A DNA stretch of 20,829 bases, from positions 1-20,829 of the IMG/VR virus record IMGVR_UViG_3300009605_006439; one strand, given 5' to 3'. This DNA is from a virus. A program made the position numbers and the translations under genes. Every line of letters starts with the position of its first letter. The first letter of the stretch is position 1. Of the stretch, positions 29-19,100 are shown in pieces. The notes beneath the pieces are model-generated. The model saw only the letters and a program-made list of their open reading frames with translations. It ran no database searches and was not told the DNA's origin.

Positions 29-114
29 TGGTACGGGTAGCCGGACTCGAACCGGCAAGATCAATGATCGAGGCATTTTAAGTGCCTTGCGTATACCAAT
101 TCCGCCATACCCGC
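29..114 (-). tRNA. tRNA-Leu (anticodon UAA)
   Basis: On the minus strand this folds as a class II tRNA. The 7-bp acceptor stem pairs gcgggta with tacccgt (one G-U at the end). The anticodon stem is aggca/tgcct with loop cttaaaa, giving anticodon UAA. There is a long variable region, and the T arm is gccgg-ttcgagt-ccggc. A discriminator A and a genome-encoded CCA follow at 29-31. It would decode UUA leucine codons, which suits an AT-leaning phage genome. It is the last tRNA of the loose tRNA cluster. Confidence 0.95.
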
Positions 115-127
115 ATATCTCACCTAT

Positions 128-157
128 ATTATACTTCAATGTTAGACTTTGTATAAC
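128..157 (-). promoter_or_regulatory. candidate promoter for tRNA-Leu
   Basis: A perfect minus-strand TATAAT lies at 128-133, about 14 bases upstream of the tRNA-Leu 5' end, so a transcript could start just before the tRNA. The -35 region around 151-157 is a poor match to TTGACA. The surrounding DNA is AT-rich, so a chance match is possible. Confidence 0.3.
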
Positions 158-170
158 GCTTTATAAAAAA

Positions 171-204
171 AGTATGTTGTGTATACCAATTCCACCACTT
201 CGGC
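171..204 (-). pseudogene. decayed tRNA-Leu 5' fragment
   Basis: Read on the minus strand from 204, this begins gccgaagtggtggaattggt and continues atacac. That is the acceptor 5' strand plus D arm of a bacterial tRNA-Leu. It shares the 13-base run ggaattggtatac with the intact tRNA-Leu at 29-114. The next bases do not form an anticodon stem. No cttcggc partner for the acceptor strand appears before the next tRNA, so the 3' half is missing. It starts one base after the CCA of the CAU tRNA. It is most likely a relic of a second tRNA-Leu gene or a recombination scar. Confidence 0.65.
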
Positions 205-205
205 T

Positions 206-281
206 TGGTGGGCTCTGTTGGATTTGAACCAACGACCTACCGGTTATGAGCCGGCAGCTCTGACCGCTGAGCTAAGAGCCC
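206..281 (-). tRNA. tRNA with CAU anticodon (Met elongator or Ile2)
   Basis: A standard 76-base cloverleaf on the minus strand. The acceptor stem gggctct/agagccc is perfect, the anticodon loop is ctcataa (CAU), the T arm is gttgg-ttcaaat-ccaac, and A plus an encoded CCA follow at 206-209. CAU reads AUG as Met, or AUA as Ile if the host enzyme TilS converts C34 to lysidine. From memory, the D-arm region and the variable and T-arm region resemble bacterial tRNA-Ile2 slightly more than elongator Met, but sequence alone does not settle it. Confidence 0.93.
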
Positions 282-321
282 GTGTTTATTTCCTGTACAG
301 ATAATATAAGTACATATCATA

Positions 322-528
322 CTAAGTCAATGGGTTAATCCAATATTCATCATAAACCGCAGCCTTTCCCTTGTCAAAAACCCACACCTTAAAACCTTCT
401 TTATTACCAAAACGATTTGACATTTGACACAACACAATTCCATAAGATGTTTCGCTTATTTCGCCTAGCGGCGCATCGCGGTGGTGGATCGGAATGATTG
501 GAACTCGAACCAATGTACCTTCCTTCAT
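322..528 (-). CDS. small KOW/SH3-like phage protein
   Basis: Sixty-eight residues starting MKEGTLVRV, with a later segment KVWVFDKGKAAVYDEYW. The pattern is an opening M-x-x-G-x-(L/V)-V followed by alternating hydrophobic strands. It is shared by three other genes in this window (529-789, 5027-5254, 14303-14587) and is typical of small SH3/KOW-like beta-barrels. The ATG follows the TAA of the upstream gene directly (TAAATG), with an AAGG Shine-Dalgarno about 8 bases before it, so translation is probably coupled. The fold is inferred; the function is unknown. Confidence 0.7.
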   Translation of the reverse strand: MKEGTLVRVPIIPIHHRDAPLGEISETSYGIVLCQMSNRFGNKEGFKVWVFDKGKAAVYDEYWINPLT

Positions 529-789
529 TTAAAATACCTTTTCTCCTTCGCTTATTACTCTTAATAAGCCAGCACTGGTAATAGTGTGAGACCCATCGTT
601 CCATAAAACTTTCACATGCCCTTCTGATTCAGGAAGGTCTGGGTTTTCTCCATAATAGTCTAGGACAAGACCGGTTAACTTTGAATCTGGGTCGTCTACA
701 TGATCATCATGTATAAAGGTAGGAGGTCCAATCAAATGAAGAAGCCCATACCCATTTCCATTCCACGATACTAAATCACCTATACCCAT
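529..789 (-). CDS. small KOW/SH3-like phage protein
   Basis: Eighty-six residues from the chosen start, MGIGDLVSWNGNGYG, followed by an acidic stretch and a C-terminal VKVLWNDGSHTITSAGLL strand region. The open frame extends to an ATG at 837. I prefer the internal ATG because it puts the GDLV motif at the N-terminus, as in the related genes at 322-528, 5027-5254 and 14303-14587. Neither start has a clear Shine-Dalgarno. It stops one base before the ATG of the next gene. The sequence suggests a small beta-barrel; no function is known. Confidence 0.65.
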   Translation of the reverse strand: MGIGDLVSWNGNGYGLLHLIGPPTFIHDDHVDDPDSKLTGLVLDYYGENPDLPESEGHVKVLWNDGSHTITSAGLLRVISEGEKVF

Positions 790-873
790 ATATAAGTAAA
801 TAGAAACCCACTTTCCGACCCTCCAAGTTTTGCACATTTAAGCTAGCAACTTGGCCACCAATAATGTCTGCAA

Positions 874-958
874 CAGAAGCGGTGAGATTCGAACTCACGG
901 TAGTTCTCACTACGCTGGTTTTCAAGACCAGTTCCTTAAACCGCTCGGACACGCTTCT
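874..958 (-). tRNA. tRNA-Ser (anticodon UGA)
   Basis: A class II tRNA on the minus strand. The acceptor stem is agaagcg/cgcttct, the anticodon stem ctggt/accag with loop cttgaaa (UGA), and the variable-arm stem gtag/ctac. The T arm contains gagttcgaatctc. The discriminator is G, as expected for serine tRNAs. TTG follows instead of CCA, so the 3' CCA must be added by a nucleotidyltransferase. It lies between two protein genes. Confidence 0.95.
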
Positions 959-964
959 ACATAT

Positions 965-1237
965 TTACTTTTCAACCTTAAAAGCATATTCAATTCCTCT
1001 GAAGGCTTTTCTATTTATTGTAAGCTCTATCATTCCCACGCCGCAATCTTTAATACTTACTACGCTTTCAGGTGATAGCCTGCTCAACAGCCTATAAACT
1101 AAACTGTTGTCAGTACTTACATGCACATGCCCTTCTTCTTTATCAAATTTTGAATCATGTAAATATGATTCGCTCTCTGGTGGACCACTGTGTTTAAAAT
1201 ACCTCTTCTTATACTTTTCTAGTTTCTTCTTATCCAT
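965..1237 (-). CDS. hypothetical protein, basic N-terminus
   Basis: Ninety residues. The first 16 are highly basic (MDKKKLEKYKKRYFKH). A compact domain with predicted strands and helices follows, including a GHVHVSTDNSLVYRLL segment. I do not recognise the family. The ATG is preceded by AGGAG at good spacing, and the gene fits exactly between tRNA-Ala and tRNA-Ser, which supports it being real. No membrane segment or signal peptide is visible. Confidence 0.65.
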   Translation of the reverse strand: MDKKKLEKYKKRYFKHSGPPESESYLHDSKFDKEEGHVHVSTDNSLVYRLLSRLSPESVVSIKDCGVGMIELTINRKAFRGIEYAFKVEK

Positions 1238-1254
1238 AATTTCTCCTTTTGTTG

Positions 1255-1327
1255 TGGAGCCGACTGGGTTCGAACCAGCGACCTATGGCTTGCAAAGCCA
1301 TTGCTCTGCCAACTGAGCTACGACCCC
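1255..1327 (-). tRNA. tRNA-Ala (anticodon UGC)
   Basis: A 73-base cloverleaf on the minus strand. The acceptor stem is ggggtcg/cggctcc and includes the G3-U70 wobble pair that is the main alanyl-tRNA synthetase identity element. The anticodon stem is atggc/gccat with loop tttgcaa (UGC), the T arm is gctgg-ttcgaac-ccagt and the discriminator is A. CCA is not encoded (CAA follows). The gene starts 5 bases after the stop codon of the purA-type gene. Confidence 0.96.
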
Positions 1328-1332
1328 TTTGG

Positions 1333-2328
1333 TTATATGCTTTCCTTCGTGCCCGAAAAGAATATTTCTTTTACTGATGTTTGTGTTTTACAAGCATGAA
1401 TAATATAGTTACATATTACATTATGCCCAGCAAAGTTTAACTTTTTTCCCATATTATATAATGACCATGCGCCGACTTCCTCCAACACGTCTATCTTGTT
1501 TAGAACAAGATGCGTGCATCCGTTAACCCTCATAGACCTTATTAACTTATCAACATTGAGCCAGTTGCACTGTCTAGGTCTTCCTGTGGTTGCGCCGTAC
1601 TCCTCTCCCACCTCTCTTATCTTAGAGAAAATATTATCCGTGGGCTCGAATTGTTTTGCGCCGACGTAAGTTTCATATATTTTTCCAACGCCCCAAACAT
1701 CGTTAATCCATTGAGGTGGAATGGCATTTAAAAGTGCGCCTGCTGTTGTGCAATGGCTAGAAGTGACATAAGGATAATCTCCCCAATCAATATCAAGCTC
1801 AAATCCCTGTGCTCCTTCACAAAGTATTTTAACTTCCTCATTCTCATGGAATTCTTCATATAAATTTACCGTATATTCTGCCAAGTCGGGGTCATCTTTT
1901 GCTAACAATCCTGACCGATTATACTTATCTCGGTAGGCGGGACCGTTGCCTCGCTTGGTTGTGCCGATCTTTGTGTCTTTGCCATCTTCTTCTAGATGAT
2001 CATTTGTAATAATGTGTGTATTCTCCGCAATGAAGATAAGACCTTTTGTATTAATCCCCCCTTCTTCTAGTTCTGCAATCTCAGTAAAAAACTGATCTTT
2101 GTTAACCACGCATCCAGAGCCAATTATAGACTTAATGCCGTAGAATACACCAGCAGGAATGTGATGGGTAACAAATTTTCTTCCCTCATGATAAATTGTA
2201 TGACCTGCATTGCATCCTCCATTAAATCTTAATACGTGAGTATAGTCTCCACTTTTGCAAAGGTGATGGGTCACTTTCCCCTTCGCTTCGTCGCCATGTT
2301 GTAAACCTACAACAATATCAGCTTTCAA
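1333..2328 (-). CDS. purA: adenylosuccinate synthetase family protein (PurA/PurZ-like)
   Basis: A 331-residue member of the adenylosuccinate synthetase family, which joins aspartate to IMP using GTP, the first step from IMP to AMP. Visible motifs: GDEAKGK at 12-18 with catalytic Asp13 present, GGCNAGHT with His43, the IMP loop IGTTKRGNGPAY at 121-132, the aspartate loop GATTGRPR at 245-252, and guanine-specificity motif NKID at 277-280. The length matches the short archaeal PurA and phage PurZ forms (about 340), not bacterial PurA (about 430). Phage PurZ makes the precursor of 2-aminoadenine from dGMP and is reported to have Ser in place of Asp13. Asp13 here favours IMP as substrate, but a PurZ0-like enzyme is not excluded. 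It starts with TTG behind a strong AGGAGG. Confidence 0.92.
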   Translation of the reverse strand: MKADIVVGLQHGDEAKGKVTHHLCKSGDYTHVLRFNGGCNAGHTIYHEGRKFVTHHIPAGVFYGIKSIIGSGCVVNKDQFFTEIAELEEGGINTKGLIFIAENTHIITNDHLEEDGKDTKIGTTKRGNGPAYRDKYNRSGLLAKDDPDLAEYTVNLYEEFHENEEVKILCEGAQGFELDIDWGDYPYVTSSHCTTAGALLNAIPPQWINDVWGVGKIYETYVGAKQFEPTDNIFSKIREVGEEYGATTGRPRQCNWLNVDKLIRSMRVNGCTHLVLNKIDVLEEVGAWSLYNMGKKLNFAGHNVICNYIIHACKTQTSVKEIFFSGTKESI

Positions 2329-2345
2329 AATATCCTCCTATTTGG

Positions 2346-2678
2346 TTAAAGATAATCATGTTCGTCTAAGAAATCATATAAATAATCATATGTGTATCCG
2401 TCTTCTGCTGGAAAGGGTATTTCTACCATGCCCGTCTCTTTTGTATATACATATATGCTGGGTACGCCATCTATATTAAATATATCCCCTAATTCTTCTT
2501 CAGCTTCGTCGTCAATAACAAAAAAATTATATTGTCCTTCGAATTCATTCTCTAGTTGTCTATATGAATGTACAAGCTCTTTACACATCCAGCATGTATC
2601 TTTATAAAATTTTATAACGCATGGAAGATCCGCTTGGTCCACTTCCATCTTAAAAGTTGTAAGAGTTAAGCCTTTCAT
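2346..2678 (-). CDS. thioredoxin-like protein
   Basis: A 110-residue thioredoxin-fold protein. The active site is C29-W-M-C32 inside KFYKDTCWMCKEL, and the expected cis-proline lies in DGVPSIYVY. The length is right for a single-domain thioredoxin. WM between the cysteines differs from the usual GP, so its redox potential may differ. It probably reduces protein disulfides, for example in a ribonucleotide reductase, which is not in this window. The ATG overlaps the TGA of the upstream basic protein gene (ATGA), with AAGGA just before it. Confidence 0.88.
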   Translation of the reverse strand: MKGLTLTTFKMEVDQADLPCVIKFYKDTCWMCKELVHSYRQLENEFEGQYNFFVIDDEAEEELGDIFNIDGVPSIYVYTKETGMVEIPFPAEDGYTYDYLYDFLDEHDYL

Positions 2679-15060: not shown

Positions 15061-15380
15061 GCACTTGTTTCCTTTTTCAAAATGTTTAAGTGTCTTTCAA
15101 GATACCAAATAGCTTTTTCAATATCTTGTATGGGATTCCCTTTGTATTTATGTCTCGCAATATATTTAATCGCGTTTCCGTCGTTAAAACCAAGCTTCCA
15201 ATCTTCAATGGCATCGATAACTTCGATTTTCCCAGCGTTATAGTGCGCTGGATGGTTGACTCTTTCTTTTTCATATATGTCGTTTCCTTGCAACAATGCT
15301 TTGCTAGCTGGTTTTTTATTACCACAAGATTTATTACTACAGGATTCGTTTGTGCAACTTCCACATCCTTTCTTTTTCAT
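15057..15380 (-). CDS. DUF3310 protein with Cys-rich N-terminus (putative nucleotide kinase family)
   Basis: A 107-residue protein. Residues 40-103 match DUF3310: VNHPAHYNAGKIEVIDAIED, GNAIKYIARHKYKG and DIEKAIWYLERHL. The family is widespread in phages and includes the T7 gp1.7 nucleotide kinase, so a role in deoxynucleotide supply is plausible. The N-terminal extension contains five cysteines in CGSCTNESCSNKSCG and could bind zinc or an Fe-S cluster; I do not know it as a usual part of the family. The gene is coupled by ATGA to the dUTPase gene upstream. Confidence 0.85.
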   Translation of the reverse strand: MKKKGCGSCTNESCSNKSCGNKKPASKALLQGNDIYEKERVNHPAHYNAGKIEVIDAIEDWKLGFNDGNAIKYIARHKYKGNPIQDIEKAIWYLERHLNILKKETSA

Positions 15381-15835
15381 TTATCAGTGCTCCCCAAGGC
15401 TCCATCTCCTCTATCAGAGATTGTGATTGGATACCAGTTGTAAAGATTTCCAGACTCAGTTTCGACTGCGCGGAAGGACACAACCGGTATTAATACAACC
15501 TGTGCTATCTTTTGTCCGGGTTCTATGATCTGTGTCATATTTCCAATGTTATGCATATCAATGAATACTTCACCATCATAGCCTGAATCGACTACATGCG
15601 CTCCGACTATAAGATCCCTCTTTGCGGCGACGGATGATCGATTCATTACCTGAAGCATATAACCATGCGGGACACCGAAGCGGAGACCAGTTTGGAGCCT
15701 TGCGCTAAATGATGGATCAATAACTGCCAATTCTTTATTCTCTGGATTGTAATATACATCCAGCCCTGCGTCACTAGGATTCCCTCTCGTTGGAGGGACA
15801 ACATCATTTCTAAGTCTTGCATATTCAATAATCAT
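15377..15835 (-). CDS. dut: dUTPase (deoxyuridine 5'-triphosphate nucleotidohydrolase)
   Basis: A 152-residue trimeric-type dUTPase, which splits dUTP to dUMP and pyrophosphate, keeping uracil out of DNA and feeding dTMP synthesis. All five family motifs are visible: SDAGLDVY at 21-28, NRSSVA, VVDSGYDGEV, GQKIAQV and the C-terminal RGDGALGST. The C-terminal motif usually reads RGxGGFGST; the Phe that stacks on uracil is Leu here. The length is typical. ATG with GAGGAAA upstream, overlapping the stop of the zinc-ribbon gene. Confidence 0.96.
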   Translation of the reverse strand: MIIEYARLRNDVVPPTRGNPSDAGLDVYYNPENKELAVIDPSFSARLQTGLRFGVPHGYMLQVMNRSSVAAKRDLIVGAHVVDSGYDGEVFIDMHNIGNMTQIIEPGQKIAQVVLIPVVSFRAVETESGNLYNWYPITISDRGDGALGSTDK

Positions 15836-16125: not shown

Positions 16126-19100
16126 TTAACCTAATAATTTAAAATTGTATTTAATTGAACGGGTTGAAAATCCCCACGTTGGGTTGTAGTCAAGTTTAGA
16201 CATGTATGGGTGATTCAAAAAGATTCTATCGCTCTCCTTAACTCCCCAACAGCGAATCGAATGCATAGTCGAAGAATCATCAACAACTTTCAGAATCCAA
16301 TAATCTTTCTTATTCTTGGTTTTCTTCTTGATAATTTCTCTTGGTATGAACCAAGCAATTCCTAAATCATGATCCCAATTTGTTAAAGAGGGCACTTGGT
16401 ATTCGCCAAGCTTCTGTCGAATGTCGTCACTAATAACTAGATGAAACGGGAAGATGCCTGTCAAATCTGAAAGATATTCTATCTTTTCTTCTTTAGTGAA
16501 GTCACCTTCTGGTTCATATAACTCAATATTTTCATTCATCTTTTTTTCATTCTTTGGCTTGTCTTGGATAATAGCCATCCAAAAATGCTTTGCTCCAGAA
16601 AACCTCTCGTCAATAACAGAACTCATGGCTCTTGCGCGACAGAGGACGTCTAATGATTTCTTATTCAGTTTAGCATATGTTATGTTTTCATTAAAGATTA
16701 AATCCTCAACTGTATTAAATGGTCTATTGTCAATAATTTGCTCAATGGCTTTTTCTCCAAGACCCTTGATTGAAGTTAATGGCTGGAAAAGCCTTTTATT
16801 GTTTGTTTCAGATATGCTCCATGAAACTCCCGAAGTGTTGATATCAACTGGGATGACTTCAAACCCATGACTCTTAGCAAGATTAATCGCTGCCTCTTTC
16901 CTAGTCTCTGGTTCTTTGTCCAAAAAGGAGGCAACCCACTCGGAAGTATAATAATTCAATAACCAAGCGCACTGATACGAAAGGATGGAATAAGATACGG
17001 CATGGCTCTTATTGAAGCCATATCCTGAGAAGTATTCAAAATTCTGCCACAGTTCTACTGCAGCTGCCTTATCAACTCCTTTCTGCATGCATCCTCTGAT
17101 AAACTTATCATGGATCGCAACTTTAAGCTTGGCGCTTTTACCTGTGCCCTTCTTTGTAAGAAGTTTGCGAAGGAGATTGGATTCGTCAAGAGATATATCG
17201 TCTCCCAATTTGTGAGCCAGCAAAGCAATCTGTTCTTGAAAAATCAAGTATCCTGCTGTTTCTTCTGTGACTTCTTGCACAATATCGTTTACATAATTTA
17301 TTGTTTCAGGATTCTGCTTTGCATTCACATATGATTTGTCGACGTTAGCACCAAGCGGACCCGGACGATAGATAGACGTAATAGCAGAAATGTCAATGAT
17401 ATTCTCTGGTTTCGCACGTTTGCAAAACTTCTGCGCTCCTTCATTTGTAAACTGGAATACTCCAATGAATTTACCTTTGTGGAAGATATTCTCATATACC
17501 TTCTGGTCGTTAAGGTCAATAGCATCCGGATGTAAGTTTTCATCGTACCATTGCTTAATCTGGTTAAAGCTTGGATCTTCTATATTATGATTTCGCTGAA
17601 GTATCTTCTTAATACATCCTTCAATCATTTCCAATGTTGATAATCCAAGCAAATCAAACTTAATAAAACCAAGTGGTTCTAAGTGACGGACATTCTGACC
17701 TTCCGACCATGGAGTTTGCAGGACACCACCTGAATTAATCAGCGGCATGTGCTTATCCAAGTCCTCGCCAATTACAACACCGCCTGCATGTCGGCTAGTT
17801 GATCGCACTTGACCATACAATGCCTCGACGTGAGTCTTAATATGTGGATACTTCTGTAAGAATTGTTGAAGGGACTCTGAATAGTCCATAATCTCTTCAA
17901 AAGTTGGCACATAAACACCTGACTTAATGCCGTGTTTCGCTTTTGCTCTTGGGGTAGCCTCTGATATCATCTTCGACGTAACTGCATTTGCTTCCATAAA
18001 AGGAACTTCATAAAACTTGCTGATATCTTTAATCAACGATCGAAGCTGCAGCGTATTGAAATTAGAGATTGGTACAACAGTCGTTTCTCCCCACTCTTCT
18101 GCAAGAATCTCCTTCAAGCCGAAGGCGTCACTCACATCATAATCGATGTCAGGGTAGTCAGTGGCATCAGAACGCAGAAAGCGACTGAACAACAGCCCAT
18201 ACTTAATGGGATCAACTTGTGTAATCCCAAGAACATATGCAACCAGTGAGCCGGCTGCTGATCCGCGACCCGGACCTGAAAGCATATTCTCATTAGCCTT
18301 ATCAGCAATTGCTTTCATTGTGAGGAAGTATTTACTAAACCCCCTATCATCGATTACAACTAATTCGCGTCTAAGTCTCTGAATATACTCATCATTATCA
18401 TCTAGCTTAAGAGTTCGGAGACCCTTAATACAATCTAAAGTTAAAGCCTTGGTTGCAGACATGTCGTCTGGAACAACAAAGTCAGGTAAGCGGACGACAC
18501 CATCGGGCATAAAGTCTTCAATGAGGTGATTGGCAATCCAATGAGTTGTAGTCAATGAATCATAAACCATCTGATCGTCATATTCAATGCCACATTCTTC
18601 AGAGTATTTCTTGTATGACTCCCACATCTGATCTCCGTTCTTTGGATATAGTTCATATCCGATCTCATCGATGTCAATTGGGAGTTCAGATGTCATCCAC
18701 TCTGGTCTATTTGGTCTGTTGAGGAAGCCAAGACGTTTATATAGCTCACGGTCCTTCCACGCATCAGGATTCGGGTAATGGCTGTCAGCAGTGGAGATAA
18801 GGTCAATGCCAAACTCTTCGTGCATCTTGATAACGTACTTGTTCAGGCTATGCTGCTCTGGTACATTGTTCCACTGCAGTTCCCCGTACCAACGGTCACC
18901 AAAGATATCAACCATGTTTCGTGTAGTTTCACGCATTGCGCCGAGGATGGCTTCTTCGTTCTCACCCACCTTTTTGCTCTTTATCTTTATCTTTCCAGTC
19001 TCTTTATCCTCATGCTCATACTCTTCGTATATACAATTATCCCAATAATTTCCAGCATATACGCCGCCGAGGCAAGCTGAAGCTGCAATGACGCCTTTGC

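Follow-up and report, generated by a model that had tools for sequence, protein, structure and literature searches.

The window analysed here is a whole IMG/VR contig of 20,829 bp, and the rest of the genome was judged from related viral records. An open reading frame of 331 codons occupies nt 1333–2328 on the minus strand, beginning with a TTG codon at nt 2328; the plus strand across the same interval carries many stops. The start residue is the same in the corresponding proteins of related viruses, making the TTG start credible. The 331 aa product matches PF00709 (E = 9e-80, 268.8 bits vs. a Pfam cut-off of 27) and contains the motifs GDEAKGK, GATTGR and NKID. A first-pass annotation of the DNA had recognised this reading frame without mentioning that it lies on the minus strand, and its existence is borne out by the Pfam match, the start and the ribosome-binding site. 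A small thioredoxin-like gene ends 17 bases upstream of purA, and the two are probably carried on one transcript. The coordinates of these and other features are given in the table below. The polymerase proved to be of the DnaE type, as had been stated earlier. The window also carries an unusual cargo of genes for GroEL, ClpP, a peptide deformylase and a PAP2 phosphatase.

Features of the window (20,829 bp) around and associated with the purA gene
Feature	Coordinates	Strand	Basis or remark
Shortened viral adenylosuccinate synthetase (PurA), 331 aa, TTG start	1333..2328	-	Pfam, residues, trees, model
AGGAGG ribosome-binding site	2334..2339	-	Read directly; 5 bases upstream of TTG
Small thioredoxin-like gene	2346..2678	-	CWMC motif, not family search
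Four tRNA genes (Leu, Met, Ser, Ala)	29..1327	-	Directly downstream of purA
IMPDH/GMP-reductase-family enzyme, 363 aa	13215..14306	-	Pfam PF00478 (E = 4e-108), flap alignment, tree
dUTPase	15377..15835	-	Closest to ordinary dUTPases
DnaE-type DNA polymerase III alpha subunit, 1166 aa	16126..19626	-	

Viral relatives were sought in IMG/VR with a profile scan, which gave 539 candidate stretches, the best 80 of which were kept. Window-like PurA proteins (54–76% identity) were found at 32 viral loci in one protein scan, and the larger records bearing a PurA of this clade are 100–190 kb in length. One relative of 158 kb, with a PurA 76% identical to that of the window, encodes a T4-type portal (gp20), major capsid protein (gp23), gp32-like protein, tail sheath and prohead protease, together with RecA, a DnaB-like helicase and DnaE. 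The purA carriers are a large clade of T4-like marine phages with DnaE. Many of them share the gene order ClpP, amidase, GroEL, glutaredoxin, PAP2, deformylase, PurA. A close relative (L059) has a similarly unusual cargo, with genes for PEP carboxykinase, a PALP enzyme and Hsp20, and another (L014) has a tmRNA gene at nt 18715–19039, near the purA locus.

No relative of the window PurA with more than 40% identity was found among GenBank phages. The best matches in cellular genomes are bacterial PurA proteins at 34–41% identity, mostly from Bacteroidota, one contig of a metagenome-assembled genome (MAG) aside. This 98.7-kb contig (L161) of a bacterial MAG is probably a phage contig; it carries a PurA of the viral clade (56% identity), the sole PurA found in the 1.3-Mb assembly. 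Matches labelled 'phage' in Listeria, Salmonella and Staphylococcus records resemble bacterial DNA, and were entered as bacterial PurA only.

Active-site residues were compared, using the numbering of E. coli PurA, in an alignment of 29 viral clade proteins and 34 PurZ-group proteins. Every one of the 29 keeps D13, K16, N38, G40, H41, T42, T129, R143, Q224, T239, G274, T300, T301, R303, R305, K331 and D333, a set that includes the PurA features of catalytic Asp13 and His41, the TTGRxR aspartate loop and Arg143. Asp13, the essential residue of PurA (PMC12884076), had been picked out earlier in the window protein, and is invariant across the 70 distinct clade members. It occurs in none of the 34 PurZ-group proteins, all of which have Ser at this position, as do 147 of 147 phage PurZ proteins (PMC12884076). 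The PurZ group has mostly lost Gly274 and often changed Arg303, which in PurA contacts the 2′-O of the IMP ribose and the aspartate, and whose counterpart in PurZ is displaced (PMC8342488). At the positions of Lys331 and Asp333, PurZ proteins have Phe and usually Asn, respectively; both PurA residues are kept throughout the clade, making the earlier prediction of GTP use from the NKID motif a reasonable one.

Departures from the standard active site were also seen. Arg272, adjoining the Val273–Gly274 loop, is replaced by Tyr in all 29 proteins, so that the protein may have a different ribose site. At position 14, Glu is changed to Cys, with Asp13 kept (GDCGKG), in at least 23 of the 70 distinct relatives (including L083, L110, L120, L132, L145, L033 and L161), while the window protein keeps Glu14. 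Gly15 is changed to Ala in many of the clade proteins. A separate, third group of phage 'PurA-like' proteins is found in C1 mycobacteriophages, Vibrio phages phiKT1024 and pv27, and Rhizobium phage RHph_TM21B (loci L384:1462-2790, L385:4962-6098, L388:586-1698 and L386:5001-6251). These keep Asp13 and His41 and have the motif TRHGxGP, but no longer have either Arg143 or the TTGRxR aspartate loop; they are probably not adenylosuccinate synthetases.

As judged by alignment, the window protein retains the catalytic core and has lost two peripheral stretches. Compared to the 432 aa PurA of Salmonella, residues ~154–196 and most of 344–393 (E. coli numbering) are missing. The PurA of P. horikoshii lacks 154–196 and 338–380, and the aligned borders of its middle gap are the same as those of the window protein. 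The PurA of a huge, 735-kb phage lacks only 159–179 and a few later residues. As the gaps of short PurAs differ or are partial, equal length is no proof of kinship. A shared deletion was likewise rejected as proof of archaeal kinship, since the gap borders are set by the alignment program and the huge-phage PurA is partially gapped.

Maximum-likelihood reconstruction under LG+C20 gave two trees, of 87 and 83 rows. In both, the window clade is monophyletic (100/100), on a long stem of 1.0–1.3 changes per site, and is excluded (100/100) from a group consisting of short archaeal PurA, PurZ0, PurZ and all viral proteins with Ser13. The neighbour of the Ser13 enzymes is the P. horikoshii PurA in both trees, with modest support (81/31 and 92/77). 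Joining the window clade to PurZ was rejected (AU p = 0.005), while placing it as the sister lineage of the entire archaeal-short/PurZ group was not (AU p = 0.297 and 0.332). In the second tree, the clade adjoins the PurA of the 735-kb phage (94/85) and then that of Bacteroidota (93/97). The first-pass annotation had assigned the protein to the short group of archaeal PurA and PurZ, and suggested that it might represent an early stage in a path leading to PurZ. The assignment holds for length, not for grouping, and the suggested path finds no support in either the trees or the AU test.

Other comparisons rank bacterial PurA ahead of short archaeal PurA and PurZ. Over shared columns, identities are 33–40% to bacterial PurA (mean 38.6%), 29–34% to short archaeal PurA (mean 30.8%) and 22–30% to the PurZ group (means of 26.1% for PurZ0 and 27.4% for PurZ). 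HMMs of bacterial PurA score 268 bits against the window protein, those of short archaeal PurA 189 bits and PurZ 126 bits. The score falls below the equivalog cut-off of the NCBIfam model PRK01117 (268 vs. 402 bits), but this cut-off is an annotation rule rather than a biochemical feature, and the model, at 430 positions, is ~100 longer than the protein. A Foldseek search with the AlphaFold model (pLDDT 87.5) placed bacterial PurA at the top, with E-values of 8e-24 and 2e-23; the PurA of P. horikoshii ranked fourth (2.5e-22), and no PurZ did better than 3e-16.

The IMPDH/GMP-reductase-family enzyme of the window lacks a CBS domain, has a short flap and carries the motif GIGGGSICSTR. IMPDH hydrolyses its intermediate by means of an Arg–Tyr pair in the flap, which activates water. 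This pair is absent from the window enzyme and from all 17 aligned viral relatives, and present in the 15 GuaB references; it is also missing from GMP reductases and from Legionella PDB 3r2g, a similar protein annotated as IMPDH. A tree calculated without the flap columns places the window enzyme between Legionella 3r2g and GuaB/T. brucei GMPR, with GuaC on long branches far from it and the viral clade not grouped with E. coli GuaC (the E. coli GuaC sequence in the flap alignment and tree was entered by hand; for P. horikoshii, Legionella and T. brucei, the sequences used in the analysis were taken from printed alignments). An identity as IMPDH proper was rejected because the Arg–Tyr pair is missing. 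A GMP reductase-like enzyme is the preferred assignment, inferred from the flap, the tree being indecisive. Annotated GMP reductases are present in other phages. Relatives of the enzyme accompany purA in 18 of the 32 related records and were not found in several others, some of them larger than 100 kb, indicating that the pairing with purA is not obligatory.

Taken together, the gene very probably encodes a working, miniaturised PurA of a T4-like marine phage, which uses IMP, Asp and GTP. During infection, it would join IMP and aspartate, with GTP, to form adenylosuccinate. A search of the 32 related records yielded no PurB-type lyase, suggesting that the PurB of the host would then free AMP, from which ATP and dATP could be made for phage replication. 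In the window phage and many of its relatives, the IMPDH/GMPR-family enzyme would probably supply the IMP from GMP. The co-occurrence of the two genes in related records and the flap without an Arg–Tyr pair suggest such a GMP-to-AMP route, by which the two enzymes together would turn guanine into adenine nucleotides for a genome of 39.6% G+C. More tentatively, the route from GMP through IMP to adenylosuccinate may serve to convert the guanine nucleotides of the host, and the active site may be further changed in the Glu14Cys subclade; we consider this possible rather than likely.

An alternative is that the protein is a PurZ- or PurZ0-like enzyme, or a direct forerunner of one, acting on dGMP in a phage whose genome contains, or is approaching, 2-aminoadenine. 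The short length and equivalent missing stretches are common to archaeal PurA, PurZ and the window protein, and PHROG 1211 and some annotations give such proteins the label '2-aminooxy adenylosuccinate synthetase'. This reading is nevertheless extremely improbable given the invariant Asp13, the retained Arg303 and Gly274, and the exclusion from the PurZ group; the residues, the trees and the AU test all speak against a PurZ origin. PurZ0 and PurZ have as companions DutZ/DmtZ, DatZ, MazZ or DpoZ (PMC12884076). No YfbR/DatZ-type gene and no MazG was found in the 32 related records, which are incomplete, by searches that detected their positive controls, consistent with the earlier view that a Z-genome is unsupported. 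The absence of such companion genes from incomplete records is evidence, not proof. A search of the relatives for DUF5664 gave no match, and its positive control was silent as well. The window dUTPase is not close to the DutZ of phage Wayne, sharing 29% identity with that portion of the Wayne protein over 102 aa. A short family A polymerase of about 394–438 aa is present in 11 of the 32 related records, the T4-like phages carrying it beside DnaE; one of these, a divergent protein of 394 aa, is encoded at L058:10647-11831. As a candidate DpoZ, the short polymerase was rejected, as the one example compared did not truly resemble that of the Z-phage Wayne (best E = 0.11).

Far closer to the preferred reading of a PurA is the view that the protein descends from an ancient, short line of PurA that branched off on the stem separating bacterial PurA from the archaeal-short/PurZ group, with shortness being ancestral and the function still that of PurA. 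The AU tests allow such a position, and the borders of the middle gap (154–196) agree with those of P. horikoshii, but the best trees nest the clade among bacteria, the second of them beside the huge-phage and Bacteroidota proteins, and the top cellular matches are mostly from Bacteroidota. A stem position is thus rather unlikely, and an origin nested in bacterial PurA is favoured, though not proven. It could also be supposed that the enzyme derives from PurA and has changed its substrate, accepting another nucleotide or another amine. The invariant Arg272Tyr, the Gly15Ala change in many proteins and the Glu14Cys change in a subclade could be read in this way, and the phage PurA-like group without an aspartate loop probably reflects functional drift in phages. 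With the aspartate loop, R143, R303, R305 and the residues contacting the GTP base kept in all 29 clade proteins, a changed substrate is quite improbable. The first-pass proposal of a true viral adenylosuccinate synthetase is supported, as far as can be predicted from retained substrate residues and exclusion from PurZ.

Phage genes of the PurA family are often labelled as 2-aminoadenine enzymes; the enzyme encoded by this large set of marine phages appears, by contrast, to be a real PurA. Short length is no mark of PurZ, and residues 13, 274, 303 and 331 provide simple rules for separating the two enzymes. The clade also offers a minimal PurA scaffold. If the enzyme is active, these phages would steer host purines towards adenine and not rely on the host supply alone.

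What is new here is a viral variant of a known enzyme, PurA. The window protein shares all tested catalytic and substrate residues with bacterial PurA (PF00709), which also provides the closest solved sequences and folds, but it is phage-borne, has Tyr for Arg272 and is about 100 residues shorter than the ~430 aa bacterial enzymes. Short archaeal PurA (P. horikoshii, PDB 5k7x/2d7u) has a similar length, missing stretches in similar positions, Asp13 and the GTP-type residues, but is only 29–34% identical, is separated from the window protein in both trees, and has a VTGR rather than a TTGR loop. PurZ0 (phage Archimedes, 7vf6; phage Wayne) and PurZ (phiVC8, S-2L) are likewise phage-encoded, short and of the same superfamily; they differ in having Ser13, a mostly altered Gly274, an often altered Arg303, and companion genes with no clear counterpart in the window. 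For the partner enzyme, the GMPRs of Caulobacter phage Cr30 and Xanthomonas phage XacN1, and Legionella 3r2g, similarly lack a CBS domain and have a short flap without Arg–Tyr; the window enzyme is 31–35% identical to these phage GMPRs, 44% to 3r2g and 39–44% to GuaB. Among phage proteins, the PurA of the uncultured 735-kb phage (LR756501) carries all tested PurA residues except for Thr42Ser and is the sister of the window clade in one tree (94/85), but at 398 aa it has lost the middle stretch only in part and, unlike the window protein, retains the C-terminal part.
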